64,000 nucleotides of DNA from Aphrocallistes beatrix (Eukaryota; Porifera; Hexactinellida; Sceptrulophora; Aphrocallistidae). Numbering within the stretch: position 1 is the stretch's first letter; the number at the start of each line of letters is the position of its first letter. Made by a program: the position numbers and the translations under genes. The stretch covers positions 3,038,001 through 3,102,000 of the forward strand of contig OY725491.1 of assembly GCA_963281255.1 (NCBI GenBank). Reading direction: 5' to 3'. The notes under the pieces were generated by a model. The model did not search any database and was not told where the DNA came from. It saw only the letters and a program-made list of their open reading frames with translations. Below, one piece after another: positions 1 through 55,963 of this stretch.

Positions 1-1610
1 CCGCTAAGTCTTACAATCCCGCTGAGTCTTACAATCTCGCTAGGTCAAGCAATCCCGCTAGGTCAAGCAATCCCGCTAGGTCCAGCAATCCCGCTAAGTC
101 CAGTAATCCCGCTAGGTCCAGTAATCTAGCTAGGTCCAGCAATCCCGCTAGGTCGTGCAATCCCGCTAAGTCTTACAACTCCGCTGAGTCTTACAATCCC
201 GCTGGGTCCAGCAATCCCGCTAGGTCCAGCAATCCCGCTAGGTCCAGTAATCCCGCTAGGTCAAGCAATCCCGCTAGGTCCAGCACTCCCGATAGGTCCA
301 GTAATCCCGCTAGGTCCAGTAATCCCGCTAGGTCCAGCAATCCCGCTAGGTCCAGCACTCCCGATAGGTCCAGTAATCCCGCCAGGTCCAGCAATCCCGC
401 TAGGTCCAGTAATCCCGCTAGGTCCAGCAATCCCGCTAGGTCCAGCAATCCCGTTATGTCCTGCATTCCCGCTAAGTCTTACAATCCTGCTGAGCCTTAA
501 AATCCCGCTAGCTCCAGCAATCCCGCTAAGTCTTACAATCCAGCTGAGTCTTACAATCCCGCTGGGTCCAGCAATCCCGCTATGTCTTGCATTCCCGCTA
601 AGTCTTACAATCCTGATGAGCCTTACAATCCCACTAGGTCCAGCAATCCCGCTAAGTCTTACAATCCTGCTGAATCTTACAATCCCGCTAGGTCCTTCAA
701 TCCCGCTAAGTCTTACAATCCTGCTGAGTCTTACAATCCCGCTAAGTTCAGCAATCCCGCTAGCTCCAGCAATCCCGCTAAGTCTTACAATCCAGCTGAG
801 TCTTACAATCCCGCTAGGTCCAGCAATCCCGCTAGGTCGTGCAATCCCGCTAAGTCTTACAACTCCGCTGAGTCTTACAATCCCGCTGGGTCCAGCAATC
901 CCGCTAGGTCCAGCAATCCCGATAGGTCCAGTAATCCCGCTAGGTCCAGTAATCCCGCTAGGTCCAGCAATCCCGCTTGGTCCAGCACTCCCGATAGGTC
1001 CAGTAATCCCGCTAGGTCCAGCAATCCCGCTAGGTCCAGTAATCCCGCTAGGTCCAGCAATCCCGCTAGGTCCAGCAATCCCGCTATGTCCTGCATTCCC
1101 GCTAAGTCTTACAATCCCGCTAAGTTCAGCAATCCCGCTAGCTCCAGCAATCCCGCTAAGTCTTACAATCCAGCTGAGTCTTACAATCCCGCTAGGTCCA
1201 GCAATCCCGCTAGGTCGTGCAATCGCGCTAAGTCTTACAACTCCGCTGAGTCTTACAATCCCGCTGGGTCCAGCAATCCCGCTAGGTCCAGCAATCCCGC
1301 TAGGTCCAGCAATCCCGCTAAGTCCAGTAATCCCGCTAGGTCCAGTAATCCCGCTAGGTCCAGCAATCCCGCTAGGTCCAGTAATCCCGCTAGGTCCAGC
1401 AATCCCGTAAGGTCCAGCAATCCTGCTAGTTCCTGCAATCCCGCTAAGTCTTACAATCCTGCTGAATCTCACAATCCCGCTAGGTTCTGCAATCCCGCTA
1501 AGTCTTACAATCCCGCTGAGTCTTACAATCCCGCTAGGTCCAGCAATCCCGCTAGGTACTGCAATCCCGCTAAGTCTTACAATCTCGCTAAGTCTTACAA
1601 TCCCGCTAAG
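1..1610. repeat. 18-bp minisatellite array, about 89 units, continues past the window edge
   Basis: Units of 18 bp (consensus AATCCCGCTAGGTCCAGC) run head to tail from the first base to about 1610. Variants such as AAGTCTTAC and GAGTCTTAC in place of GGTCCAGC occur in ordered blocks. The block containing GGTCGTGC recurs at 151, 835 and 1213, distances of 684 and 378 bp, which are exactly 38 and 21 units, so there is a higher-order repeat. Because 18 is a multiple of 3, several frames are open on both strands. The + frame at 582-1739 would encode six-residue repeats (S/Y-N-P-A-x-S), but a TAA interrupts that frame at 498-500, and the minus frames are equally open. I see no signal peptide or splice context and treat it as non-coding satellite DNA. 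Confidence 0.95.
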
Positions 1611-1852
1611 TTTGTTTACATTTTGCACCTTCATTTTTTCCTTTTTAAATTTTTCAGATTTGTTTTCTTTTTTCACGTTCATTGTCATCAGTTATCACCT
1701 ATAATTAATTTTATCAGTTATTACAACATCCATTTTTAAATCAAGTCCACAAATCCCGTTTCATGGTAGTTTACAATTCCAAACACTACATAAGCAACTA
1801 TCTTTCCACATGTCATTGTACTTCTCTGCAATAATACTCATAAATATATGTA

Positions 1853-2305
1853 CTAGCAAATTTCGGGATGGTCCGGAATAGAACTTTTTATCAAAGAATC
1901 ACACTTATTAATCTTTACAAAAACTTCATACAAGATAAAAATACATTCTACCACATGATGAGAAGGATATTTGAGGGAGCACCTATCAACTAAATCGATC
2001 AAGGTATATTCAGAGCCAACGTCGTTGTTAACTACAAGAGGTTTATTTGTTGTTAAGAAATCATGACAAGATAGGCAAGTTTTAGACTTTTTAAGGTAAG
2101 AAAAGACTGCATATCCCGCTATATATATGAGACATTCAGTGTGAGAAACCTCAAACTCAGGGAGTGAAATTTCATGTAATTTACTTAGATAAGGTTCAAT
2201 ATCTAAATTACAAGGTAGTTGTTCGTCGCTTATATAATCATAATTATCAACAAATTGACTAAGGTACTCTTTTAAGGAAATACTGTCTTCGGTAGAGGTA
2301 AAAGC
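1853..2305 (-). pseudogene. C-terminal exon of a THAP/P-type transposase
   Basis: On the minus strand an AG acceptor (CTTAG, 2306-2310) is followed by 150 uninterrupted codons ending in TAG at 1853-1855. The translation contains YIAGYAVFSYLKKS followed by C-x2-C and a long hydrophobic helix region. That order resembles the C-terminal domain of THAP9/P-element transposases (YIAGYV, then a C-x2-C pair). The exon starts in phase 0, as does the end of the THAP exon at 3141-3299 upstream on the same strand. They may once have been one gene, but the catalytic core that should lie between them is not visible in the 836 bp available. Probably an internally deleted P-type transposon. Confidence 0.6.
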
Positions 2306-2581
2306 CTAAGAAATAGGATGGTATTATTCTAAATATAACATAGCTATACACGTATTGTGGTGCTGGACAACATTGTAGTCCGATGGCAAATTCAAGAGAT
2401 ACTCAGCTAACACTGTTTGAATGTATTGATCAGGAACCAACAAATGAAGACAATCAGGACAAGATTGCAAAGAGATAAAGGTTAGAATCAGCGAAGGACA
2501 CATATACCTCAAATCCAGTTAGAATTCAGACGACTAACACAGATACTAAGCAGTTAAACCTGGAAAGTTTCCAAGTTCATT

Positions 2582-2990
2582 GTGTCTCCTACACTACACT
2601 ACCGAACGACATTGCATCAACGCCTGCATTTCCACCTGTTCAACCAACTAATGTGGTATTTCCCGTTAACAATTTTTCTCAATAAGCCGAGATCATTTAT
2701 TTCAGGGTGGTTTCTGATTTACACGTGGTTAGAGTATTCAATTCAACGGGATGTATGTTTCTGCTATCCATGTCGTTTATTCGGATCTAGCGGCTCGGGT
2801 AATACCAACAGACCTGAACAAACTTTTCTCTTACTGGTTTTAGGGAATAATTAATTAATCAAACTAAGTACCAAAATTCGAATTCAGGATTAAAAACTTT
2901 AACTGAACATGCAAAGACACATAAAATTATTCTTGGACCATGGAAACAGGCCAGGGCATCACAAACGCTCTGGCTTTGCCACTGGTCCCA
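2582..2990 (+). pseudogene. hAT (ZMYM1-like) transposase N-terminal fragment
   Basis: Around 2690-2810 the + strand encodes W-F-x3-YTWLEYS followed by C-Y-PCRLF. This is the TTF-type zinc finger found at the N-terminus of ZMYM1-like hAT transposases. The same motif (YTWLEYS, CKPCRHF) occurs in the hAT gene at 37457-39883. The frame stops at 2854. A weak continuation resembling the conserved LxEHxKTH stretch follows around 2885-2925 in another frame. No terminal repeats were found. It lies between, and in opposite orientation to, the two THAP/P-type exons, so it may be an insertion into them. Confidence 0.6.
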
Positions 2991-3140
2991 AGAGAGTCTT
3001 TGGGGCTTAATAGTTTCATCTGTCAGATAGGAAGGGAAGAAGATGTACAGAAACAAACCTTTGAATAAAATGGGATAAAACAACTAAATCAAATAATTTT
3101 AAATATAAATAATTCAAAATATATATACAAGGGTAATTAC

Positions 3141-12841: not shown

Positions 12842-13620
12842 ATGGTGTACAAATGGATTGTGCGTTTTGTTGATGGATGTGACACTGTTGAAGAACCCAA
12901 GCGGACTGGCCGTCCCGTGAGCTCCACAACTGGAGGAAATGTTGACTTGGTCCTGAAAACAATGAATGAGGACAGAAGACTCACCATGAGACAACTAGAA
13001 AATGTACTATTAGGAATACCTAAAACAACCATTCATACTATTGTTACGAAGTATCTCTCGATGACACGAGTTGTGGCAAGATGGGCTATATCGTCGCAGG
13101 GGATGATCCTAGTTCCATTTTTATGAGCCAGTATCGGGATTCCAATCTTTCCAGTATAAACGCCCTGGTGAATGGGCACCAATCAAGGCAAAATCCGTAC
13201 CATCTGCTGGAAAAAGAATGGCAACTGTTTTCTGGGATATGAACGGGATCTTGCTTATTTCAATAGTGATTACTATATCAAAGTACTTCAGCAGCTGCGA
13301 GTGGTAATCAAGCGTCAGTGGAAAGTTGACAGCTGGCGTATGGTTGCTTTATGATAATGCAACTCCTCATACCAGCAAGAAAACAATGGATTCCATCCAG
13401 AAACTGGGCTTCTAAATCTTGCCTCATCCACACTACAGTCCTGATTTGGCCCCTAGCGAATAGTGTCTGTGTTTGGGGAAATGAAAAGGCCACTTAGAGG
13501 TAAGAGATTTCCGCTATGAAGGACCTCCAGGCCGCCGTAAAAAGCTGGAAAAAGGGACCCCGCAAAAATTCTATGCAACAGGGATTGTAAGGCTGCCAGA
13601 TCATTGGCGAAGTGTGTAAC
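12842..13620 (+). pseudogene. mariner transposase relic
   Basis: The first frame (12842-13126) encodes a helix-turn-helix followed by EPKRTGRPVSSTT, NEDRRLTMRQL and a second HTH ending MTRVVARWA, the mariner N-terminal DNA-binding region. Later frames encode APIKAKSVPSAGKRMATVFWD (about 13155-13225), LLYDNATPHTSKKT (the second catalytic Asp, about 13346-13385), LPHPHYSPDLAPS (third catalytic position, about 13420-13460) and a C-terminal tail to about 13620. Frameshifts and stops (for example after 13126 and near 13413) make it a pseudogene. The start codon is approximate, and some N-terminal sequence seems to be missing. Confidence 0.85.
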
Positions 13621-22339: not shown

Positions 22340-22990
22340 TCAAATGCAACTCCCTTCATCGACACGAAGGATGCCCTGCCGGTGAAACACAAGCAACTCG
22401 GGTATCACCTGCAACGCAGGCACAGGTAGACAACCAAGTAACCGAAATATGAAAGAACGGAATGTCGACCATCCGATTCGTCCTAAAGTAGTGTGATTAT
22501 ACTCAAGAAAAAGGATGGAGGGCCACGATTCGTTGTCGATTACCGAGCTCTCAATGACTAAACACGAAAGGGTGCCTACCCAATGTCCAATCCTCGCGAT
22601 ATTTTACACTGTCTACGGGATGGCAACTAGTATACCACTTTGGACTGCGTGAGTGCATATTAGGCTGTGCCCATTGAAAACCGAGACCAGCCAAAGAGTG
22701 CATTCTCGACGCCACGTGGGCACTATGAGATGACACAAATTGCCTTTGGCCTGCGCAATAGCCAGGAAACTGACCAACACTTGATGGATTGCACTTTATG
22801 TGGAGCCCCGCATGTACACACATACGTGGATGACATCCTGGTACACTCTCCCAACATCAACTCACATATCAACAGCTTAACAGCTTACATAAATTTCGTG
22901 TGCGGCTTCGCGATGCCAAAATTTAATTGCGCCCAGACAAGTGCAGAATTGGATACTAGTACACCGAATTCGTCGGGCAACTTGTTACTC
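22340..22990 (+). pseudogene. Ty3/Gypsy reverse transcriptase relic
   Basis: In order on the + strand: FIDTKDALPVKHK (the segment before RT), PSDSS near 22470, KKDGGPRFVVDYRALND (about 22506-22560), an AYPMSNPRDILHCL-like segment, FSTPRGHYEMTQIAFGLRN (about 22706-22760), and the catalytic YVDD at 22823-22834 followed by ILVHSPN. This is the palm and fingers of Ty3/Gypsy reverse transcriptase. Several stop codons interrupt it (for example TAA at 22559-22561 and TAG inside the palm). No LTRs, RNase H or integrase were recognised next to it. Confidence 0.85.
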
Positions 22991-23064
22991 CAGAGGGCCA
23001 TCGGCCACTGCCAAACAATGTGCAGAAGATAACGTCATACGAACCAAAAATGGCAAAACAAACT

Positions 23065-25404: not shown

Positions 25405-26414
25405 ATGATATCCCCTCGGGAAAAGTTCAGCAATTCCAATGAATCCTATCACTCTGTCCTCAGTTCAGCTCAGATTACAGATATCATCCGCATTTATTCT
25501 GATCCTCACCCTGTCCAAAAAGGAGCTGATCGCCAAAGGTACTACAGGATTAGGAAGAAATATGTAGTAAAACAGTCACAATCTGTTAAATTCCTATATA
25601 GCCAAGTGCAAAACTCACAGGATCTATTGAGAGTCGTATCCAAAGAATCGCTCTTCGAAACACTTGAGGCTGTCCACACGGAGGGAGAAAAGCACCTTGG
25701 AAGAGACCGGATGTCAGTAGTGCTTAAACAGAAGTATTCCGGCATTTCCAAAGAAGTGGTCCAATTATTTATGAAATCGTGTAGTGAGTGCGAACTTCAG
25801 AAATGTAAAAAGCAACTGAAATCTACGGTCACAAAACCAATACGTAGTTCAGATTTTGCTTCGAGGAGTCAAATTGACTTAATCGACCTGCAAAATACAC
25901 CAGAAATTAACAGGCCATACAACTTCTTAATGGTATATCAGGACCACCTTACCAAATTTGTTATGCTCCATCCTTTGAGAAGAAAGTCAGCACAAGAAGT
26001 TGTTGATAATCTTCTAGACGTATTTTGTTTGTTGGGGCCACCGCACATTCTACAGAGCGATAACGGTAGGGAATTTAAAAACATCAATCTTGCAACCTTT
26101 ATTCGAGAACAATGGCCTGAATCTAAAGTGATTCATGGAAAGGCGAGATATCCTCAGTCACAAGGCTCTGTTGAAAGGGTAAACAAAGAGATAAAAAAGG
26201 TGTTAGGATCTTTTATGCGGAAATCAAAAGATCTATGTTGGGTTAAATATGTAAATAGAACCCAGTACTCAATCAATACTAGTCCACATTCAACACTAGA
26301 GTAGAAGACTCCTTACAGAATCCTCTTCGGTCGGGAGCATGTACAGGGGCTTGAAGTGTTTGGAATCCCAGATGAAATTGCTGCAGATGTCACTACAGAA
26401 GAAGAGATGAATCA
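25405..26414 (+). CDS. integrase of the GINGER-like element, exon 1 (KRBA2/SCAND3-type), one premature stop
   Basis: The ATG at 25405 is the first in a frame opened by a stop at 25363. Residues 91-129 form an HHCC zinc-binding domain (H91, H97, C126, C129). The catalytic core has D158 (in SQIDLI), D219 (in QSDNGREF) and E257 (in QGSVERVN), the D-D-E triad of integrases. The pattern resembles KRBA2 and SCAND3 integrases. After residue 299 a TAG at 26302-26304 interrupts the frame, and the same frame resumes with KTPYRILFGREH, typical of this family. The stop is therefore most simply a point mutation. The exon ends at a strong donor, CA|GTAAGT (26414/26415), in phase 2. The product would cut and join transposon ends in the nucleus. 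An upstream exon cannot be excluded. Confidence 0.88.
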
Positions 26415-27282: not shown

Positions 27283-28285
27283 GTTCCTTGCACACGCTAA
27301 GGAGATGGACGGTGAACAGACCATGACCAACACAGATCCAGTGAATTCTGAAGTTGTCAACGTTCAAGAAACGTCCAGCTTTCTCTCTGACGATTCCTAC
27401 ATGCAAGACATAAATCAAGAAAATATTAGGTTTAATGTTAACATGGATTACAATTCTCCTAACTCACCAGCTCAAGAGCCCACCATTCCACTTGAACATT
27501 CTCCTCCGTACACACCAATTCCCACGATTACGCATTACGCTGCTCCTCTCCTGTTGGGCGACCAAGATGGGCAAGATATTGAGCTGGAATCACACTCTCC
27601 CAGTTTGTTTACCCAGATTCAAAACCTAGAAACAGAGAGCTGTGATTACGGGAATGAACCTAGTTGTGCTGTTTGCCAACAAAGTTGCAGTAGAGCTCAC
27701 CATTGTCCTGGCTGCGATCTTCCTGTCCATACCATTTGTGGTCAACCAGTTGCAGGTCTTGAAGGGTTTGGGAGTCCTGTGTGGTGTGTGAGTTGTTTCC
27801 TAAAAGAAAGAGAAGGTTCACACAATCAAGGCCGAACATCTGTAAAACGTGGACAAAAAAAGCAAATACAAAGAATGGAGAAGCAAACACTAAAGAAGGC
27901 GAAGCAACTTGACATCGGTGACAACATACTTGTTCATGTTCCTGAGGTTGATAAAAGGTCACCGTTTGATTCACCCAATATTTCAGGTGTTATAACGGAA
28001 CGGAACGAAGAAGGGTACCTAAAGATTGGTACTAGTGCAGGAACACTAGATAGATCTTATCTCCCTTCAGAAGTGAAATTTTCTTTTTCACATTTTCTCT
28101 CCCTTGAAGACGTTCCTAACGTGATCGTCACACTGCGAAAAGCAGTTTTGGCCTCTTCTCTCGGCAAAAGCAGACTCTTTTGCCATTGTACTAGCGGGTA
28201 TGGGTCTAATCGCTGTAGATGTAGACGATTAGGAAAGATATGCAACTCTAAGTGCCATAAGAAATTAGCGTGCCATAACAAGTAA
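27283..28285 (+). CDS. integrase of the GINGER-like element, exon 2: zinc finger and Cys-rich tail
   Basis: The open frame runs to TAA at 28283-28285. After an acidic, Pro-rich stretch, around 27655-27800, comes a Cys/His cluster: C-x2-C-x3-C, HHCPGC, VHTICG and WCVSC, a treble-clef or PHD-like finger. A basic segment rich in Lys follows. Next is a small beta-type domain beginning LDIGDNILVHVPEVDK and containing VITERNEEGYLKIGT, which is typical of the C-terminal part of KRBA2/SCAND3-type integrases. The end is a Cys-rich motif, CHCTSGYGSNRCRCRR, with three more cysteines. Two lines support membership in the same gene: phase match with exon 1 and the family's domain order. An internal ATG at 27305 could also start a shorter product. 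Confidence 0.85.
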
Positions 28286-32110: not shown

Positions 32111-32369
32111 TGGTGGGATGCTGTTACAAAGTTACTTGTCTCCCTAAGTAAAGTGTCGGAGGGGTAACTTTCTTCAAGTAAGTATCTCCCGAAGACACTT
32201 TACTCAGGGGGGTCTCAGTCCTCGGTTAGTTGGAGGGGGCTTCAGCTTGGGATACAGCTGCGTAGAAATCAGCGGTATTATGGAGTATAAACTGGGTATC
32301 TGGGTTTAATGATTAAATCTTTCGTAAAGTTGTGCGTTCAAGGAAGGTGTCCATTCTGTTGGGTCTAGT
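32111..32369. other. spacer with an imperfect inverted repeat
   Basis: AGTAAAGTGTCGGAGG and CTCCCGAAGACACTTTACT (about 32144-32210) are inverted. No other feature. Confidence 0.4.
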
Positions 32370-32736
32370 CATGGCCTACTTAATATACGGCTATATATGT
32401 CACCGAGAAGGCCATAAAACGAAGAGGGCAGTTTTAACAAAATCAAAATTTAATTAGACCGATAAATCAAAAACCGCTTCCGATAGACATTTGAAATGTA
32501 TTATTACCATATACAAACATTATATCAGAGTATCCAATTCCGCTGTCAAAAATGTTATATGTCATCAATGTGATTGCGCAATAGGTTCTTTTTACAGCGG
32601 AAAATGTTGCTGTTCCAGCTCATATTAAACATCGTTATCTGCATTTCTAATGCTTGATTTTTTGATGGAGCAACAATAGGAAGACCTCAAGCCAATAAAT
32701 CTGAAAATTTAGTCAGAATGTCGACAAAAAATTATA

Positions 32737-33214
32737 CACTGCCCCACCAAAAGTATTCGTACTCCTCAATAATTCCCATATAAATTGTATAAATCGTATC
32801 AATTTTTGGAGTCAATAGTAATAAATCAGTAACAGTTTGACTAAATTTGGCTTAAAATTTATATTCTACAAACTCGATTTACTCATTTTATAGTCTTTCA
32901 ACTCAATTACTCTATTTTAGGGTTAAATATTTTAACCTGTGACACCTGGTTCCACTAACGCCATCATCTATAGTGGCACTAATTTATGGTATGTAGCACA
33001 ATGAAGTAAATGTCCAAATATTTATGTTTGAAGGAGAGTAATTGAGTTGAGAGACTATACATACAATGAGTAAATCGAGTGTGTAGAATAAGGATTTTAA
33101 GCCAAATTTAGTCAAACTGTTACTGATTTATTACCATTGACTAAAAAATAGATACGATTTATACAATTTGTATGGGAGCTATTGGGGTGTACGAATACTT
33201 TTGGTAGGGCAGTG
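32737..33214. mobile_element. mariner/Tc1-type MITE in the left fold-back arm, 478 bp
   Basis: Ends CACTGCCCCACCAAAAGTAT and, inverted, CACTGCCCTACCAAAAGTAT, with TA on both sides (32735-32736, 33215-33216). The inverted repeats continue for about 200 bp towards the centre. The opposite fold-back arm lacks it, confirming insertion. Confidence 0.92.
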
Positions 33215-33474
33215 TATGTTTAAGCCATAGCTCGAAAAGTATAGATCGTAGACACTAAGAAATTATACCATTTAATCCGTAAACTATTACTTTCTATATG
33301 AGAATAATACTATTCACATGTCTATTTTCAATAAGTTCTGAGTTATCCATGATTTTATCATGATCTATAGAGAAGTAATGAGATGTGACAAAATCCTAGA
33401 TAACTCAGAACTTATTGAAAATAGACATGTGAGTAGTAGTATTCTCATATAGAAAGTAATAGTTTACGGATTAA

Positions 33475-36400
33475 GGATACCGCCCGTGAAAAATCCATAG
33501 GTTTGGCTTACAGCATATATCAAGAATAGAGATATATAAGGTGTTAAGGATACCGCCCGTGAAAAATCCATAGGTTTGGCTTACAGCATATATCAAGAAT
33601 ATAGATATATAAGATGTTAAGCGTGGGCAGGTAGTGCAATTAAAAAATATTGAGACATGCAAAACAGTTTTTGGCTCGCATTTCTAGTTTTTGAGTTACA
33701 GCGTCTCAAAGTCGTTTTTTTCCGTTTTTCCCTAGCACATCTTAATGGTAAGCCCTCCTGCACTCTGTGATTTTTTTAAAGCACATGTTTGGATCAAATG
33801 CTTCGAAAATTTATTCATAGATAGTCTATCATATTTGCCACTTCATAGGACCAAAAGAAAGTTAAAATTTTAAAAATTGTGCTTCAAAGTTTCTGTATAC
33901 ATTGCTAGTGACTATTGCATTGTTTTTTGAGTATAATAGCTACTTTGGGAACTTATTTCATGACAAGATTCACCATTTTCTAATATATTCATAGTTTTCC
34001 ATAGAATTTGTATTACAACAAAAACGATGATTACTCAAGAAATATTTACTTTTTGACAAAGAGATGTTTGAGGAACCTATATATTATCATATATATCCTT
34101 TCATTTAAGATTATTATTGAATATATATCTTCAATAGTTTTTAAGCATTGACATCGAGCACTTTGGGGGCCATAGAGTGGTTTGATGTCCGAACTTTACC
34201 TACAATATACTATAACTTACGAACTAATGGTCCGATCTGATCAAACTTTTTTTTAAAATGTTCAGAATTTTTTTCTATACACAATTGCTAATATCACAAC
34301 GGCCATATCCCGAGCATTTTAGAAATGAAGTCCCTCATAAAGATATTTTTGATTGGATTTCAGGTGCCTCTTTTTCTAAATTCATCTGTTTTATAATATT
34401 TAAAGGGGCCAAAACCATTTTGAGGTTCGTATAATTGAAAAAATATCAGATAAGTTAGAAAATAATTGATGAATGCGCCGCAAAATCACGAATAACTTTC
34501 CGATTTTTAGTACGCCTGAGCTTTTGGTGCCCAGTTCTAGAATATCAAAATAAATACCGTCCAACAAGTACGATTAGATGGTAGACTACTCAATAATCCG
34601 ATGGAATTGACAATAAAAAATTCCACAATTTTTTTTAATGTTTTGCGATGTTTTTCGAGGGCGGTATCCTTAAGCGTGGGCAGGTAGTGCAATTAAAAAA
34701 TATTGAGACATGCCAAACAGTTTTTGGTTCACATTTCTAGTTTTTGAATTACAGCGTCTCAAAGTCGGGTTTTTCCGTTTTTCCCTAGCACATCTTAATG
34801 GTAAGCCCTCCTGCACTCTGTGATTTTTTTAAAGCACATGTTTAGATCAAATGCTTCGAAAATTTATTCATAGATAGTCTATCATTTTTGCTACTTCATA
34901 GGACCAAAAGAAAGTTAAAATTTTAAAAATTGTAAATTTTATCGGTGTCCGAATAAAAAGGGCCAAAAAACGGCGAAAAAAGCCCGATTTTCTTTGCAAA
35001 TCAGCAATAAAATCACATATTTATAAAATATCAAAAATTGAGTGGTCCTACGCTCATCGCCTAATGATATGGAACAACTCCTGAAATTTTCAAACCTCTA
35101 TCTCAAAGCAATTTTGAGTTAAAATTTTTGAATTGCCGAGATATAGGGATTTGAAGTTTTGATGGTAAGAACGATGTAAAATGAGCTATTAACGAAAAAT
35201 AAAAGCATCCATGGACATTTAATCGCGTGTATACTAATGAATTAGATGTATTTCAACAGATTTTGGTGAAAATAGCAAAATTATACTGAAAATTCACAAA
35301 TTACCTTGAGGCCCCTAACCCCGAATATTTTGAACCAATTAGGGAATGTAAATCATATTCCTAGCAGTACAATGTATAATTCATCGGTTTAGAATGAATA
35401 AAGAGCTACCAAAAAGTATTTTAGGAAGTTAGAGCGAGAGTCTACGACTTTTAGTTTTAAAGTTAGGATTTTCGAAAAATGCTACGTCATAACGTGATAA
35501 AAATTTGAAACTTAGCATTCCATTCCATGCAGTACATTTATTATTTAAGAATCAGATATATACCGTATTGAAAAGTATATTAGGAATTGAGAGCTAAGAA
35601 TTTTGGTGTATATTTCACGAGATATGGAGGAATCTGTTTTTGGACCATAAATGGGGGGCTTTGACCGAAATTTGGAGATAAATGCTTTGAACTTCCAAAA
35701 TATTCATGTTCGGTGCTTCAAAGTTTCTGTATACATTGCTAGTGACTATTGCATTGTTTTTTAGTATAATAGCTACTTTTGGGAACTTATTTCATGACAA
35801 GATTCACCATTTTCTAATATATTCAAAGTTCTCCATAGAATTTGTATTACAACAAAAACGATGATTAGTCAAGAAATATTCACTTTTTGACAAAGAGATG
35901 TTTGAGGAACCTATATATTATCATATATATCCTTTCATTTAAGATTATTATAGATTATATATCTTCAATAGTTTTTAAGCATTGACATCGAGCACTTTGG
36001 GGGCCATAGAGTGGTTTGATGTCCGAACTTTACCTACAATATGCTATAACTTACGAACTAATGGTCCGATCTGAACAAACTTTTTTTTTAATTGTTCAGA
36101 ATTTTTTTCTATACACAATAGCTAATATCACAACGGCCATTTCCCGAGCATTTTAGAAATGAAGTCCCTCATAAAGATATTTTTGATTGGATTTCAGGTG
36201 CCTCTTTTTCTAAATTCATCTGTTTTATAATATTTAAAGGGGCCAAAACCATTTTGAGGTTCGTATAATTGGAAAAATATCAGATAAGTTAGAAAATAAT
36301 TGATGAATGCGCCGCAAAATCACGAATAACTTTCCGATTTTTAGTACGCCTGAGCTTTAGGTGCCCAGTTCTAGAATATCAAAATAAATACCGTCCAACA

Positions 36401-36503
36401 AGTACGATTAGATGGTAGATTACTCAATAATCCGATGGAATTGACAATAAAAAATTCCACAATTTTTTTTAATGTTTTGCGATGTTTTTCGAGGGCGGTA
36501 TCC
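33475..36503 (+). mobile_element. TTAA-family element, copy C (outer), in the right fold-back arm
   Basis: GGATACCGCCCGTGAAAAA at the left and TTTTTCGAGGGCGGTATCC at the right, with TTAA at 33471-33474 and 36504-36507. The uninterrupted left fold-back arm reads, in inverse, TTTACGGATTAAATGGT. The pre-insertion site therefore had a single TTAA, and insertion duplicated it. A second copy (33548-34669) sits inside. Without it, copy C is about 1.9 kb and non-coding. Confidence 0.93.
33548..34669 (+). mobile_element. TTAA-family element, copy D, nested inside copy C
   Basis: Both termini are present and TTAA lies at each side (33544-33547, 34670-34673). The insertion split the outer copy at its own ATGTTAAGCGTGGGC motif, 70 bp from its left end. 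Copy D is 1122 bp because it lacks about 0.8 kb of the middle: the sequence jumps from AAAGTTAAAATTTTAAAAAT to GTGCTTCAAAGTTTCTG. Confidence 0.92.
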
Positions 36504-37456
36504 TTAAATGGTATAATTTCTTAGTGTCTACTATACTTTTCCAGTTATGGGGCTTAAACATGTAATTTTTGTCTCCATAGCAACTGTGGAATGCATAGAC
36601 ATTCTAACTAAAATTTTCAGATTTTTGGCTTGAGGTCTTCCTATTGTTGCTCTATCCAAAAATCAAGCATTAGAAATGCCATAGACTCCTTAAATAGAAG
36701 GACTAGTATCTCCTATGCTCGGGTCCTGGAACTTGGGTCCCATCATAGATTGGATTGTACACATGCTAAAAGCTTCATCTTGGTGTTTAACATGGGGTTT
36801 TGAGGGATGTGGAATTCATTTTTTTTACTTTTGACCTTCTATAAGGTCACCTAAAAGTCATTTGAAGGTTAACGAGACAACCACAGTCAAAATAGTTTAC
36901 ATTGTGATTATATAAGTCAAAATGACAGTTTAAATGTTAACATTAGCACGGATGAATTAATAAGGTCAGTATAAAATGCAAACAAAAGGTAAAACATTGC
37001 AATTTGGCGCATAATCAACCATACACAATATTCCACATATAGGGATATCATTGTGAACAGGAATATTACTCTCTATTTAGTTTTGAGATGAGAGTTTTCC
37101 TTCCTTCTCAAGCAGCCAAGTTGCCTTTCTTTATCACTATTATCAAGCACAAAGGACTTCAAAAGTATGTTTGACAAAGTATACATGCTCCTTGAATAAT
37201 AGCCATTGGACTGTCAATACGAGATAAAGCTTGGCTGAGGTGAGCTCGACAGCAGTGTAAATTGCAATTAACAAACAGTTTGTACGCTGAATGAACGAAA
37301 TGAACAGTTGCAATTAGGGGTACAGTCATGGGCGTAGCGAACAAATATTATTTGGGGGGGCTGGATATATTTTAGGAGGGGCCATTATTTAGATCAAATT
37401 TCAAATTTCAAAGTGATTTATTTACTAAATTATAGAATTTTTGCAAATCTGAAAAT

Positions 37457-39883
37457 CTATGACGAATAAAGTTTCTTTAGTGCGGTGACCACTAGACCTG
37501 GGGCAGTCTGCATTCTCCTTGTAAGATCAGTCTCTAATGACAGAAAACACAACTGGTTTAGTCTCTCTGTCCCCATTGATCGACGATTTGGAGCATGAAT
37601 TCGCTTCAGTGTGGAGAATAGACGCTCAACTGATACTGAAGATATCGGACAGACTAGAATACTAGTTAACAACTGATAGACACTTGGAAATATATCTGGG
37701 TTGCATATATCTAAGTACATCATGAGATCAGAACTTTCTGGTAGTTTCCTCTTGCACAGTCCTTGAAATAACATCTGTTCTGAATCTGATATCGATAATC
37801 CTACCCTAATTGCGAAATTCGCACCCGAAAAGTCTTGCATCTGAGTAATTTGCCTAGAAACGTTGTAGAGGTCAAGAGCTTCGGGGTGGAATAGTAGGTC
37901 AAGCTCTCCCATTATGATATCGATCGCTTCATAGTATATTAGTTGTAAGTCCTCGTCACAGCTCACTCTCCTCCTTTGCCCTGTGGTCGAAGTAATATGA
38001 GTGTCTACTAATCTTTGAGGCGTTCTTTTAACCCGCTTGGAACATGAATCATACAATTCGATTTCGTAGGCTGTACAAACTTGGATACTCAGTGCAAGAA
38101 CACTTTGAAAATGTTCTTCAGAATGAAACAGTTTTAGGGTATCTTTCAATGCAAATACATGGTCACTCACATCACCTATTGTTTGGGATGGGGCCTGTAG
38201 AGCTTTGGTCGTTATTTCACAGGAATCTAATACTTTAGAGAGCATAAACAACACAAATATGAACTTTTTACATCGCATCAGATGGAGGATGCCTTCTGCC
38301 TCTACTCTCGCCTGCATCATTTCGCTCAGGTCTTCAAGCGCTGCAAATATAGATTCAAGTAACAAGGTCACTTTAGTTACAGATACTGCATATGATGACC
38401 AACGTGTATCACCTGCGTTTGTGAGTCCAACTGGTTGTTTATCTGGCCTATACTCAGCTTGTTTCTGCTTAAGTAAAGACAAACGTTTTGGATGACTGAA
38501 GAAAACAGACAGTTTATTACACATAGCAAGACAGTCGCCAACTTCAGTACAGAGTGATGAAACCTCTTGCAAGACTAGATTTAGCCGATGTGAATGGCAA
38601 TGAACAAATATAGCATTTTGGTAATACTTTTTCAAGATCGCCTGCACGCCCCCCTTAGGACCCGACATTACTGATGCTCCATCGAAAGAAAAACCAACAC
38701 ATTGCATTTTTTTTTGGAGGGGATAGCCCCACCAATGATGGGTTGTCTTGAAGAAACCCTAACTGATGGTAAAAAAACTGGGGGGGCTTAAGCCCCCCAA
38801 GCCCCCCCTTGTCTACGGCCCTGCATTGGGACGGGTTCAGTTCAATTGGTGACATAATTTCCTGTATCGCTATTGCTATCCCCTGAGCAGTCTGATCTTT
38901 AGATATGTCAACCATACCTACTGTCCTTTCGTATAAACACTTGTTATGTAGATAACGGAGTACCACTGCTTCAACTTCTTTGTGGGCCCCATTCCTTGTA
39001 GCATATGAGAGGATTGCGTACTTACCATCACCTAACTCATCTTTAATCATTTGAAGTCCCACATTTTCAGCAGCCATAAGGATTTTGTTCTGTACTGTAA
39101 GAGATAGCATTTTATATGTAGCTCTGTCATATGCAGACTTTACGAGGGGAGAATACTTTAATAGAAAGTCATGGAGCTCAAGGAAGTTCCCATGTTACTC
39201 TTTGAATCTTCATCTGGAAGTCCTTCATAATGTCCACGTAGGGGAAGATCTTGCCGTACATGAAGGAGAATAAGATCAATGACGAACTCCAAATGCCCTT
39301 GATCACCAGTTATTAGCTTTCGTAGCTCAATGTTTGTTTCACATGTGAGCTGTTCAGAGATTGTACCAGATATAACAAGTTTAGTGGTGTTATATGACAT
39401 TGATTTCACCACACTGTTCGCATGAACATTTGATCCTTGATGTTTCTCCAAATTCTCATTCATTTTCTTCCAATTCGAGAATCCAGCAAGTGTAAAGACA
39501 CCATCGTGATCTCCAGACTTTGGAGTACTGCTAAAGTGGCGACAAGGCTTACAGAAAACTGCATCCCTCTCTACGCTGTACTCCAACCAAGTATAATCCT
39601 GAAACCAATGATGAGCACAAGAGCGAAGTTTCCCTCCGATAGCTTTCGTTGGAAACTGGAACGCTTTATCTGGTACAACTTTGCTTTCATCTTTACCAGA
39701 CAAATCGCTCGGTAGTGAGGCATCACTTCCACTCAAATTTGAGCTAAATAAAGGTTGACATCCTTTCGCATTAGTTTTATTCATAGAACATGTCACATCA
39801 CTATGACGCTCATCATCAAAATGCTTTTGTCTTTTGAAAAAAGAGGTTATCGAATTATCACTCTCTCGTTTTCTCTCCATCAT
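37457..39883 (-). pseudogene. hAT transposase, ZMYM1-like, with a frameshift and a 119-bp insertion
   Basis: The start MMERKRESDNSITSFFKRQ (39883) matches the usual N-terminus of this group. A TTF-type zinc finger follows (DYTWLEYSVERDAVFCKPCR), then LRGHYEG. Near 39190 a frameshift leaves the first frame to stop at 39158, while the second continues with GNFLELHDFLLKYSPLV. Next come NKILMAAENVG and the catalytic-region block VGMVDISKDQTAQ. A 119-bp insertion with a 5-bp duplication (38700-38828) breaks the frame. The third frame resumes with QCVGFSFDGASVMSGPKGG, a catalytic Asp region. It ends in the hAT dimerisation domain, SVSVERLFSTLKRIHAPNRR, with the stop at 37457. Overall length and order are those of ZMYM1-like hAT transposases. 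Confidence 0.93.
38705..38823 (-). mobile_element. 119-bp insertion in the hAT transposase gene
   Basis: Flanked by CATTG at 38700-38704 and 38824-38828, a 5-bp duplication. On the minus strand it starts CAGGGCCGTAGACAAGGGG, contains GGGGGGCTTAAGCCCCCC and ends in nine A. Its start resembles the 159-bp element at 29367-29525. It could be a MITE or a short A-tailed retroposon. It adds 124 bp to the gene and shifts its frame. Confidence 0.8.
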
Positions 39884-42736
39884 AAATAAGCTAACAAGTA
39901 ATAATTATATATGTAAATCAATACGTATGTTATCAACATTGAATGGTAAGGATTTTCATCCTCGAAGATTGGTAAGTGATGGAATAACGTGTCTCTTTGT
40001 TCTCAACGAAAGACATTAGTCATTACAATGTTTAAGGTAGAAATTTTGGGGGGGCCGAGTGAAAGTTTTGGGGGGGCCAGGCCCCCCCAGGCCCCCCCAT
40101 GGCTACGCCCATGGGTACAGTTAGTCCACCCCTGTTTAAATGAGTGAGAAACTCCGAATCAGTCAGATTGTCATCATCATCTTCAGCTTCGGCCGTTGAA
40201 ATATTAGCTCGAAATTTGCGTTCCAAATATCCAGCGAGAAATATTACTTTATGTTTCATTGTGTCATTACTTTGAGCAAGACCTTCAGTCTCTGAAATAG
40301 TATTATCAAATTGATCTTCTTCTATGTGAATGCTACAAGTGCAAGATACTTCACTATGAGGCTGTGGGGTCGAATCATATTTCAAAAGAGTGTGAAGATT
40401 CTTGGTTTCTGCAGATGCCTTGATGTCAATGACGTCGATATAGAAATTTCTTGCACTACGTTGTCTAGCTTGGCCAAAAAACTTCTCTAGGGCCTCATCC
40501 GCGAACACACCAGGAACCAGTTAGTGATGAGTTTAACAAAAACAATGGTCCCTTCACTAATACGGAGCTTATCTTTAAAGTTGAAAGAGCAGCAACAGTT
40601 TTGTCATTGAATATCTGACAAACAAAAGGCACACTTTGTCTTTGCAAAGGCTTGGGATACACAGCTGTGTATGTAATCTTGGTCAAACGGATGCTGATCT
40701 TCCTGTCTTCAATATAAAGTGCGTCTATGTCTTTCCAACGTGCTATGTGTGATTTGCCATATTTTGTGAATGTGAGTTCCTTATGAGGCACAGCTATCCA
40801 GTTATTCCTAATGTTTTTGAATAAATGGACATAGTCATAAACGAGAAAAACATGAGAGTTTAAAATGTCTATAAACACTCTACCAGGTCCACCTAATTTA
40901 GCATAGACTAAGACATTAGTATTGCAATTGTCACATATACACGAAATTGTAGTGCCACCAGCATTGCTAACTGCTGCTAGAGCTTCGAGTAATATATCCT
41001 TGAGTTGATCTGAATTGAGTTTCGCGACAAGATGAATACGTAGAATATATTTAGGGCCACCAAAATGGCATACAACCTCGATCACTAAAGCATGTGTTGC
41101 GAGAACTTCAGCGTCACCAGACCCATTTTGAGCATACCCAACAACATGACCACCAGAGTACCTAAGAGTTTCTGTTAGCTTCACTTCATCAAATAAAATG
41201 TTTACAAGACGCTGCTGGGGTTGAAGCTCTTGAAGAGTTGCCTCAAGTTTTTATCATGTAGAGTCTACATGATGAAAACTTGAGGCAAAATAGTCTACAT
41301 AGTAGACTATTAGAAAGAAGTTTCTTCAACAGTTCTACTCGAGTTAATGCAATAGCACCAGATTTTCGTAACATTCTATACGCAGCTGGTGAAATGTTAT
41401 GAAGTTCAGCAGCAAGAATATAAAGATTTCTATCAAAACGACGGCCTTTTGGTGCAGTAAGTAACAAACCTAGCTGAGCATACAAAAATTGATAATGGGG
41501 AAGCTCAGAGCAACTCATACGACTCAATTCCTCAAGGGCACTTTTCAGGTAATCTGTGTCTTTGAATTCATACTCTGGAATACTATTTAAAATGCTTTTG
41601 AATTGTGACCATTTGCTGATGAGGCTGTTCTTATGTAGGAACCCAGCTTCGGAAAAATACGATTTAGGTATTTCCTTTCCATTTTTCTCAACACATTTAA
41701 GAAAAAAAAATCCAAATGGTGATTTCGCATGTTGTAAGTGTAGAAACTGGACGACTGAACGTCCTTGTGTATCAGTTTTGGAAATGTAAACATCATCACC
41801 ATCAAGAATAATAAGATGATTTTGGGAGAAACGCTGTCGGATGGCTGTGTAACAAAATGAATCAAAGTCACCAATTTAATCAAGAGCGTTAGTTCTAAGC
41901 TCTTCATTTCTGGCACGTGCTTCTGCCGAAGAACTTGTATTTCTAGGGGTTGAAGAGACTTGCTTTAAACATGACTGTGGGATACCAGGAAAAATGGATG
42001 GCGGTTGGCTAGGTCGTTTACCACTTTTAACTATGACCCATTCACAGTCAAAATGATAGACGCAAGCATAGATTTGTTTAAGTTGTAACAGACTGGAGTG
42101 CTCATTTGGCATAGCATCAATCCAACGATTTCGCTCCACTCCATCACTTGGAAATGGTACTACTTTTGTGTAAGGTTCACCCCTGTAATTTCTACGACAA
42201 CCATAGACGTTACACTTCTTAGGCATTATGAAGTTAAACCAACACCACCAAGCTACAAACCTGAAAAGAAAAATCATAATACAGCAGCATGAGGTAAGGA
42301 CAGCGTCAGTTGGCGCCAGGAACGGCAAAAAAAGCAAAAACTTTCCATGATCTGCCATTTTCGTGACACAACGACGTCGTTGCGTCACGAAACAATGGGA
42401 CCCAAGTTCCGTAATCCGAGATTGCCAGATACTAGTCCTTCTATTTAAGGAGTATATGAGAAATGCAGATAACGATGTTTCATATGAGCTGGAACAGCAA
42501 CATTTTCCGCTGTAAAAAGAGCCTATTGCGCAATCACATTGATGACATATAAAATTTTTGACAGTGGAATTGGATACTCTGATATAATGTTTGTATATGG
42601 TAATAATACATTTCAAATGTCTATCGGAAGCGGTTTTTGATTTATCGGTCTAATTAAATTTTTATTTTGTTAAAACTGGCCTCTTGTTTTATGGCCTTCT
42701 CGGTGACATATATAGCCGTATATTAAGTAGGCCATG

Positions 42737-43460
42737 GTGTAGTGTACTCAGGTGGGTAATTTTAAGTATCTGTCATCTGAGTTGGGGACAAGATAGTAGA
42801 TGCTGCCATATGCGGTGTGAACTGCGGGGTTGTCTAGTTACGTGCACTGTGGCACCGTTCTGTAGGAGATAAATGCAATATAGTTAAATGCACTACAGTA
42901 GGAGATAAATGGTGGTATATGAGATAAATGCAACGGAAATTTTTCGAATGGAAAATGGATAGCATAGTTGAATATCTGGTCATACGCTTCACATACGCGA
43001 CACCATTTTTGGCATGTGGTGAACGATGGATTTTATGAATAATTGGGTAGCTACGAGAGGTGGTAGCCTCAAGTGGTGCAAGGGAGATTTTAAGGACAAG
43101 ATGGGACGGGGATTTTGGTTAAGGAGCGAACTGTTGTTGGGTGGGTCGGGTTTGAGAGTATGAGTAGAGAATGGGGAATGCGTCCGGGAGTGGTTTCTTG
43201 TCGGTAATCTTTGGGAAGTAGAATAAATCTGTAATCGCTGCTACGATTTCAGAGGGGATGCGGCCTGCCCTAAGTAGTGCGTGGAGATAGCGCTGAAAGT
43301 AATTTTGGAGCGCATGCGGGGGTGTGAGGATAGTGTGGAGGAGCGGTGAAGGGGGCGGGGCATAGATTGACTTGAAGATTTGTTTTCGTGAGGGGTGGTT
43401 GGAAGAAAGGTGGATTGGGGTGGGCTGGCGGAAGGGTTGTGTTATTGGTACGATGGATAT
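42737..43460. other. G-rich region without recognised gene
   Basis: From about 43020 the + strand is strongly purine/G-rich (GGGGGCGGGGC, GGGGTGGTTGG), unlike the AT-rich surroundings. The minus strand has an 83-codon open stretch (43270-43521) rich in Pro, Thr and His. AGGAGATAAATG repeats at 42862 and 42899. I cannot assign it; a decayed retroelement is possible. Confidence 0.4.
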
Positions 43461-46689: not shown

Positions 46690-47187
46690 ATGAAAATTGC
46701 AGTTATACATCCAGATTTGGGGATTGGAGGAGCTGAAAAATTAATTGTTGAAATTTGTGTTGCTCTTAAGTCCAAAGCGTATTCTGTCACAATATTTACT
46801 TCATATCATAATCCTCAACATTCATTTTTAGAAACGAATGATAAAAGATTTATTATTATCACAAGAGGGGGTTGGATACCACGCTCACTATTTGGCAAAT
46901 TCTATGCATTTTTTTCTTATATCCGTATGATTTATTTGGCTCTCTTCGTTTTAATATACTTTTACAACTACTTTCACAGCATATTTTGTGATCAAATATC
47001 AGTATATGTACCTATTCTAAAGCTATGTACTAAGAAGATAATTTTCTATTGTCATTTTCCAGATCAACTTCTCTCAAAAAAGTCTGGATTTTTGAAAAGA
47101 ATTTACAGATTTCCGATAAATTTCATAGAGGAATGGACTACTGGCCGCGCGGATATTGTTCTCGTTAATAGTGAGTATACAAAACAG
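46690..47187 (+). CDS. ALG2: ALG2 alpha-1,3/1,6-mannosyltransferase, exon 1
   Basis: ALG2 adds the second and third mannoses to the lipid-linked oligosaccharide on the cytosolic face of the ER. Exon 1 encodes residues 1-166, starting MKIAVIHPDLGIGGAEKL, the Gly-rich GT-B N-terminal loop of GT4 glycosyltransferases. A hydrophobic segment lies at about residues 72-100. The diagnostic blocks are FCDQISVYVPI, KIIFYCHFPDQLL and EEWTTGRADIVLVNS. The ATG opens at the point where the homologous proteins start. The donor CAG|GTATAA (47187/47188) leaves phase 0. No frame damage is seen. Confidence 0.96.
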
Positions 47188-47249
47188 GTATAAATAAATC
47201 TGATTATATTGATTTTAAATAACCTTTAATAATAACAGCGCTTTGATTA

Positions 47250-55243: not shown

Positions 55244-55963
55244 ATCTTTCATGAAACGTTCAAATCCCTAACTCATATAAAACCTGAGACATTATATCCT
55301 TCAGTTAGCTTTGATCAGTATATAAGTCCACCTTTTCCGGCATCCAATCTTGTTAATTTGACGTCATTTTCTTACATATTTTTAACAATAAATAGGTTTG
55401 AAAGGAAAAAAAAAATTGGCTTAGCTCTCAATGCTTTCAGTATTCTCTCTCCAAAAAGTGTTAGCGAAGTATCTCTTTCAGAAAATCAATGGGCGCAGTG
55501 TGGACTAATTGTTGCAGGTGGATATGATGAAAGAGTTCGTGAAAATATTGAATATTATAGTGAACTCGTTCGTTTAGCATGTTCATTAGATATTAGAGAC
55601 AAAGTATTTTTTCTTCGTTCTATATCTTCTGAAGATAAATACTATCTTTTAGCGAATAGTTTTGCCCTATTATATACGCCAGAATTTGAGCATTTTGGGA
55701 TTGTTCCAATAGAAGCAATGTATATGAAATTACCTGTGATAGCGCATAATAGTGGTGGACCAAAAGAAACAATAGTTCAAAGAAGAAGTGGTATTCTTTG
55801 CGAATCAGGAGCTCTCGAATTTTCTAAAGCAATGAAAAATCTTGTTGAAGGTCAAGAGGAGAATGGAATTAGAGATAGTTTAGGTGAATTCGGGAAGAAT
55901 CATGTATTAAATAATTTTTCGTATGATCTTTTTGCTGAAAAAATAGATATTCTTCTAAAGTAA
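55244..55963 (+). CDS. ALG2: ALG2 alpha-1,3/1,6-mannosyltransferase, exon 2
   Basis: Encodes residues 167-405 in phase 0, from IFHETFKSL to the TAA at 55961-55963. The family blocks are TLYPSVSFD, FLTINRFERKKKIGLAL (start of the GT-B C-terminal domain), IVAGGYDERVRENIEYY, and LYTPEFEHFGIVPIEAMYM. The last contains the EX7E motif (E315 and E323) that binds the nucleotide-sugar in GT4 enzymes. VIAHNSGGPKETI follows, which contacts the donor in related enzymes. The total of 405 residues is close to the 416 of human ALG2. The GDP-mannose donor and ER location are inferred from the family. Confidence 0.96.
   Translation: MFHETFKSLTHIKPETLYPSVSFDQYISPPFPASNLVNLTSFSYIFLTINRFERKKKIGLALNAFSILSPKSVSEVSLSENQWAQCGLIVAGGYDERVRENIEYYSELVRLACSLDIRDKVFFLRSISSEDKYYLLANSFALLYTPEFEHFGIVPIEAMYMKLPVIAHNSGGPKETIVQRRSGILCESGALEFSKAMKNLVEGQEENGIRDSLGEFGKNHVLNNFSYDLFAEKIDILLK

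Follow-up and report, generated by a model that had tools for sequence, protein, structure and literature searches.

The window analysed here is a stretch of 64,000 nucleotides (C4:3038001-3102000 of a 28-contig assembly of 100.5 Mb, which was used for the genome comparisons). Between positions 32370 and 42736 it contains a single palindromic element with three interruptions, and two of these inserts are themselves interrupted; the elements were recovered by self-BLAST and a repeat search. The arrangement is very probably a nest of seven DNA-transposon insertions at one place, the outer fold-back element included. Nested transposons are common, and this nest, a clean case of a known and ordinary kind, is unusually legible: the order of its layers can be worked out and tested on other genomic copies. 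Excision of the inserts leaves net lengths of 1067 bp for the fold-back, 2984 bp for the P element and 2663 bp for the hAT, the first two reproducing figures given in an earlier note on this DNA.

The fold-back (32370-42736) is a palindromic element from a large genomic family, with tips CATGGCCTACTTAA and an imperfect 7-bp target duplication (GTCTAGT at 32363-32369 and GTGTAGT at 42737-42743, 6/7). Exact 7-bp duplications are present in all four distinct copies examined (L002, L003, L004, L007); those recorded for other copies are GTTGAGA, GCGGGAC, CCCAAGC and AGTGGGG. By self-BLAST the arms pair at 32370-32651 with 42456-42736 (97%), at 32641-32722 with 36598-36679 (94%) and at 33216-33275 with 36504-36561 (87%); after in silico excision, the check that the earlier note had proposed, they align with 403 of 414 positions identical over three arm segments, with nine gap columns. 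The left arm is missing 24 bp beside the MITE that are present in the right arm and in other copies. A first look at the family gave 951 candidates, and among the 40 scored, copies with both arms span ~1.0-1.1 kb. The center is a 203-bp palindrome (33272-33474), also found between the arms in several fold-back copies (e.g., C19:889193-889395 inside 888747-889843); being TTAA-bounded it was considered as a third TTAA element, and this was rejected as its genomic copies are the centers of fold-backs.

The fold-back is probably a Galileo-like member of the P superfamily, an assignment drawn from its 7-bp duplications, which fall within the 7-8 bp of that superfamily, and from its partly P-like tip. 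The tip agrees with the left tip of the P element described below at 11/14 positions, a score equalled by 2 unrelated sequences among 7988 CA-starting 14-mers; agreement with the right P tip is 10/14, which is less telling as 41 unrelated 14-mers equal it. A 26-nt stretch of the arm also matches the 5' region of P relatives L025 and L028 at 23/26 positions; both of these relatives, the two examined, have tips CATAGACTCC. Galileo of Drosophila is described as a P-superfamily element with fold-back-like long inverted repeats and 7-bp duplications, in one copy of which a P element was found, and in D. willistoni ~17% of copies have other elements inside (PMC4168063; PMC2775673). The fold-back here shares the long inverted repeats, the 7-bp duplications and the P element inside; it differs in that Galileo duplications follow GTANTAC, which those of this family do not match.

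The left arm is interrupted by a 478-bp MITE (32737-33214) with TA at 32735 and 33215 and tips CACTGCCC...GGGCAGTG. It has the TA duplication and inverted repeats of a Tc1/mariner MITE and no long frame, and appears as a self-palindrome in self-BLAST; its best other copy is 94% identical (best 40 of 914 candidates). A probe made from the flanks of the MITE site aligned over only ~10 bases on the left, owing to the 24-bp loss in the left arm, while a probe from the right arm is unbroken across the corresponding place in four of four fold-back copies (L002, L003, L004, L007). These empty copies have CA where the window has TA; the TA of the window was therefore either produced by a C-to-T change or altered following one.

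The second interruption is a TTAA element present as two plus-strand copies. Copy C (33475-36503, a span that includes copy D) is non-coding and lies between TTAA at 33471-33474 and 36504-36507; copy D (33548-34669) lies 73 bp inside C between TTAA at 33544 and 34670, and is shorter by ~0.8 kb, a part present in C (34934-35712) and in the full genomic copies. The two copies share 73-bp and body repeats in self-BLAST. A full copy elsewhere (L051) is 1938 bp long with tips GGATACC...GGTATCC beside TTAA, and the element tip reads TTAA-GGATACCGCC. Tips of piggyBac elements begin with CC; C and D begin with GG and were rejected as piggyBac. The TTAA duplication with RR...YY tips, here TTAA-GG...CC-TTAA, is reported for T2-MITEs and the Kolobok superfamily (PMC6004289; PMC9587614), where the tips set Kolobok apart from piggyBac (PMC9587614). 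The longest stop-free run in L051, the one full copy translated, is 68 codons, which does not provide a Kolobok transposase; with matching tips and no transposase, the element is called Kolobok-like and non-autonomous on its sequence features, rather than a proven member of Kolobok.

The third interruption is a P element on the minus strand (36680-42458, a span that includes the hAT) with imperfect 64-bp terminal inverted repeats (36680-36743 and 42395-42458) and the 8-bp target duplication AGAAATGC at 36672 and 42459, a length typical of the P superfamily. Two minus-strand domain matches above the Pfam cut-offs place it in this superfamily: PF05485 (THAP, E 4e-06) and PF21787 (TNP-like RNase H N-terminal, E 5.6e-11); no single open frame in the window copy spans the whole of the transposase. 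Other long copies lie on C9, C11, C14 and C19. By eye, flanking duplications are 8 bp in L020, L021 and the C14 copy (L015/L010), 9 bp in L022 and 7/8 in L013; none was seen by eye in the flanks of L011 and L012. A preference of the P element for fold-backs is unsupported, as no fold-back-arm match of at least 20 bp is seen around 11 other P loci, apart from matches that extend slightly beyond the tip of the P element.

Within the P element, a palindrome-forming insertion of 44 bp (41258-41301) is missing from L010 and L011, which are the two other P copies to extend over this position. It contains an inverted copy of the sequence directly before it, in the form found in L010 and L011, and the direct arm beside it in the window has lost that form; this looks like a snap-back or template-switch event, and since the insert keeps the lost form, the event would have preceded a later change. 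The C14 copy (C14:1601618-1612003; L015, L017, L010) seems to hold its own ~7.3-kb insertion: query segments 394-528 and 521-2339 lie 7.3 kb apart, with an 8-base overlap resembling a target duplication, and TATCCAGA is common to the outer flanks. Short P derivatives of ~0.6-1.0 kb are also present (C5:31360-32382, C19:892197-892794 and C4:5342207-5342973), in which two P tips flank sequence without match to the window P. Anopheles gambiae P elements and P-MITEs likewise have 8-bp duplications and short derivatives with the same ends (PMC1562414); the P element here differs from these in its genome and in being an interrupted copy.

The P element is interrupted by a hAT on the minus strand (37327-40113, a span that includes a further insert), which has a C-terminal dimerisation domain (PF05699, E 6.8e-11) and the 8-bp duplication GGTACAGT at 37319 and 40114, both typical of hAT elements. 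Two near relatives in the genome, 1.9% and 3.5% different, are without the further insert, and a protein search gives four relatives at 85-86% identity over ~63% of the query. Short hAT derivatives occur at 18 places that match the first ~98 bp of the window hAT (e.g., C4:1508623-1508786), and at 14 of these 18 the last ~40-68 bp of the hAT adjoin the first ~98 bp.

The insert within the hAT is a 119-bp piece (38705-38823) with CATTG at 38700 and 38824. The earlier note had its position and duplication right; the piece, however, is a cut-down copy of a longer element and not an independent small element. Its sequence corresponds to one end of a family ~530 bp long with tips CAGGGCCGTAGAC; 15 loci of this family were fetched, and all 13 readable at both tips have 5-bp duplications. 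Since the CATTG duplication is kept and the left tip is reduced to CA, the piece was most likely shortened after landing. Some hAT groups make 5-bp duplications; the 8-bp duplication typical of hAT elements is not that of the 119-bp family, and the possibility that the piece is what remains of a hAT whose 8-bp duplication became shorter was rejected as this family makes 5-bp duplications.

The order of the nest is read from its layout and from empty sites, for which both flanks of each insertion were used as probes and aligned to other genomic copies. The sites of P and C are uninterrupted in four of four fold-back copies (L002, L003, L004, L007), the hAT site is empty in four of four P copies (L011, L012, L013, L015), the D site in four of four TTAA copies (L051-L054), and the 119-bp site in two of two hAT copies (L030, L032). 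The duplications that the earlier note had listed for the six inner insertions are all present, each with insert-free genomic copies; the paired duplications and insert-free copies at every level make chance an unreasonable explanation of the nest. The nested order is the fold-back, then the MITE, C and P, then D and the hAT, then the 119-bp piece; the mutual order of MITE, C and P is unreadable, and the earlier note, whose nesting and relative order are upheld by layout and empty sites, had assigned none. The proposed course of events is that the palindromic, non-autonomous and probably P-superfamily fold-back would have been the first arrival; the Tc1/mariner-type MITE, the Kolobok-like non-coding copy C and the P element would then have entered it; D would have entered C and the hAT the P element; and a 5-bp-duplicating element would have entered the hAT, most of its length being lost afterwards. 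Each insertion is considered to be a cut-and-paste event by a transposase of its own family. No frame of at least 90 codons is found in the fold-back, MITE or TTAA copies, and for these the transposase must derive from other copies.

Divergence was measured as differences from family majority letters, and the figures are relative and are not dates. The comparison used the best-matching copies, namely four fold-backs, 16 copies of the TTAA element, five loci of P, two copies of the hAT and 15 small-family loci. The fold-back has 27 differences in 1034 positions (2.6%; four segments pooled), the body of C 20/1832 (1.09%), D 15/1122 (1.34%), and P 21/1542 at positions covered by at least three other copies, such that C, D and P span 1.1-1.4%; for the hAT, 24 of 2566 three-way sites are private differences (0.9%), and the 119-bp piece has 1/118. 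In uncorrected tests the fold-back differs from C (P = 0.003), D (P = 0.04), P (P = 0.03) and the hAT (P = 0.0003) and is not separated from the 119-bp piece (P = 0.35); pairwise uncorrected tests give no difference among C, D, P, the hAT and the 119-bp piece. Divergence, proposed in the earlier note as a means of dating the layers, is compatible with the order, but only the fold-back stands apart. D is nominally more diverged than C, contrary to the nesting, and the difference is not significant (P = 0.6).

The position of D within C, at the TTAA 73 bp from the left tip (site 73), recurs in the genome. The right junction of this D-type arrangement is found exactly at 18 places (window included), against 681 intact site-73 contexts, and a reversed control gives 0. 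The TTAA at position 198, 125 bp away and kept in at least 14 of 24 pieces compared, has 3 junctions against 639 intact contexts (Fisher P = 0.0017 for site 73 versus site 198, site 73 being a post hoc choice suggested by the window itself). Junction counts cover three of 16 internal TTAAs, with site 198 as the one control fully counted; position 556, a control by junction count alone without an intact-site total, has 0 junctions. The contrast is 17 versus 3 (P = 0.003) without the window locus, 12 versus 3 (P = 0.036) when loci with hosts about as alike as their inserts are merged, and 9 versus 3 (P = 0.15) when site 73 is restricted to loci with the left junction seen, the site-198 loci not being held to the same test. 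Under random landing on TTAA, ~0.5-2.2 events would be expected at site 73, a figure that assumes 700-3000 insertions, themselves an assumed number, and one TTAA per 110 bp.

At the 17 other junctions, read for 1.2 kb each, the insert is direct in nine and inverted in eight; it is direct in the window. These inserts belong to several subfamilies, several of them other than those of their hosts, and the hosts are 77-98% like a full copy. Six pairs of loci have inserts 97-99.7% alike in hosts that are 70-79% alike (300 bp on each side), which indicates separate events; in seven other pairs the hosts as well as the inserts are >90% alike, and the two loci may stem from a single event, so that grouping gives at least 12 independent events. 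The left junction, consisting of the 73-bp host piece followed by an insert tip, is found at 9 of the 17 loci; at one of them three successive tips (L092; stacked tips at C7:3.57 Mb) suggest a triple nest. One locus (L070/L087) has other sequence at the left end and no 73-bp host piece, and at 7 of 17 loci no left tip lies within the 801 bp fetched. By eye, fifteen young insertions share no clear consensus at their targets apart from TTAA. Both ends could be parsed for 16 of 19 young loci, among which the sole exact self-nest (L052) is near position 595 and not at site 73. Dense self-nests of the TTAA family, with insertions at other internal positions and stacked 73-bp ends among them, were also observed at C9:1363258-1371314 and C7:3571038-3576212, and one TTAA host (L069, C1:3911164-3912384) seems to carry inserts at both site 73 and site 198.

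The pattern looks like recurrent self-insertion of the TTAA element at one internal site, with a contrast that weakens under strict counts (P 0.04-0.15); it is plausible, though not proven, that the placement of D is non-random and that the element re-inserts at its own site 73 above the neighboring internal TTAA. It is tentatively proposed, with a confidence just short of even, that this Kolobok-like element homes onto its own older, resident copies through the site-73 TTAA, in either orientation and recursively, building nested arrays of which D in C is one case. Transposase that occupies the subterminal region of such a copy may guide an incoming one to the nearest TTAA. Site-specific self-insertion, if true, would be new and is not visible from the window alone. 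If the bias is real, the junctions would document how a TTAA transposon selects its targets in nature; as a preferred and a neglected TTAA lie 125 bp apart in the same copies, target choice is separable from tolerance of insertion, and the bias would also be relevant to tethered target choice and to the ways in which transposons restrict or concentrate their spread.

Other explanations concern the locus itself and the genome-wide pattern. A misassembly joining unrelated segments is hardly credible: contiguity of the segments rests on the assembly, but correct duplications and insert-free copies are found at every level. D likely landed after C was already here, although this order is not forced, as a C+D unit could have moved together. 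Such a composite, formed elsewhere and entering the fold-back as one TTAA-bounded unit, would have intact outer tips, as C+D does; composites are not rare, given the 18 junctions in the genome, and the divergence of D (1.34%) is nominally not below that of C (1.09%). Against this, three other junction loci with inserts at least 85% like D (L074, L075, L082) have hosts that are 86.2, 88.9 and 89.9% like C, so that no sister composite is seen among them; the composite move is considered unlikely.

Recombination or slippage between repeats that contain TTAA could also give the succession of two 73-bp pieces and two bodies, with no self-insertion; for the multimers of KolobokP, circles or unequal crossing-over have been proposed (PMC9587614), and C and D have the same orientation in the window. 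Crossing-over between direct repeats cannot produce inverted or subfamily-mismatched inserts, and as the inverted orientation is seen at 8 of the other 17 junctions and several inserts differ from their hosts in subfamily, this explanation is very unlikely. A stronger contender, to which we give a probability somewhat below even, is that the hotspot is an effect of compartment or sampling, in which the family occupies transposon-rich regions where nests are common and site 73 was chosen post hoc. Among the first 100 of the 681 intact places, 70 of the 72 on C1 lie within 1.95-5.34 Mb of a 12.5-Mb contig, and significance is lost under the strict counts; the 3 junctions at site 198, 125 bp away in the same copies, against 18 at site 73 oppose it.

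Among titles and abstract openings on self-insertion and nesting, none describes a DNA transposon that repeatedly inserts into the same internal site of its own copies. Precedents may be found in the study of nested MITEs by Jiang and Wessler (Plant Cell, 2001), which is cited in PMC3903597. Of known elements, the Kolobok superfamily, T2-MITEs and KolobokP share the TTAA duplication and RR...YY tips with the element here, and KolobokP forms multimers that share long terminal direct repeats (PMC9587614); unlike KolobokP, the element here is found as whole copies at one internal TTAA in either orientation. Autoinsertion is reported for plant LTR retrotransposons, some families of which prefer their own older copies and certain regions (PMC6911290); those are retrotransposons with a regional preference, whereas the present case concerns one internal site of a DNA transposon. 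In yeast, PIF/Harbinger is likewise a DNA transposon that inserts into itself, and self-insertion of the excised element has been proposed to explain the poor reinsertion of long elements (PMC10288884); in that proposal the excised element hits itself, while here an incoming copy enters a different copy, often a diverged one, at a site that recurs.

Scans of the 64,000-nt window for Rfam families and tRNAs gave no matches. A piece of a glycosyltransferase family 4 gene lies at 46690-47193, and by eye a frame downstream at 55358-55963 looks like the rest of the gene, which we take to be ALG2-like. Positions 14-1608 are an 18-bp tandem array of ~88 copies. Transposon-like frames are present at 12842-13126, 22667-23032, 25405-26304 and 27305-28285; these four regions include mariner-like and reverse-transcriptase-like frames (by eye), an integrase-core match below the Pfam cut-off and a SCAND3-type zinc finger.
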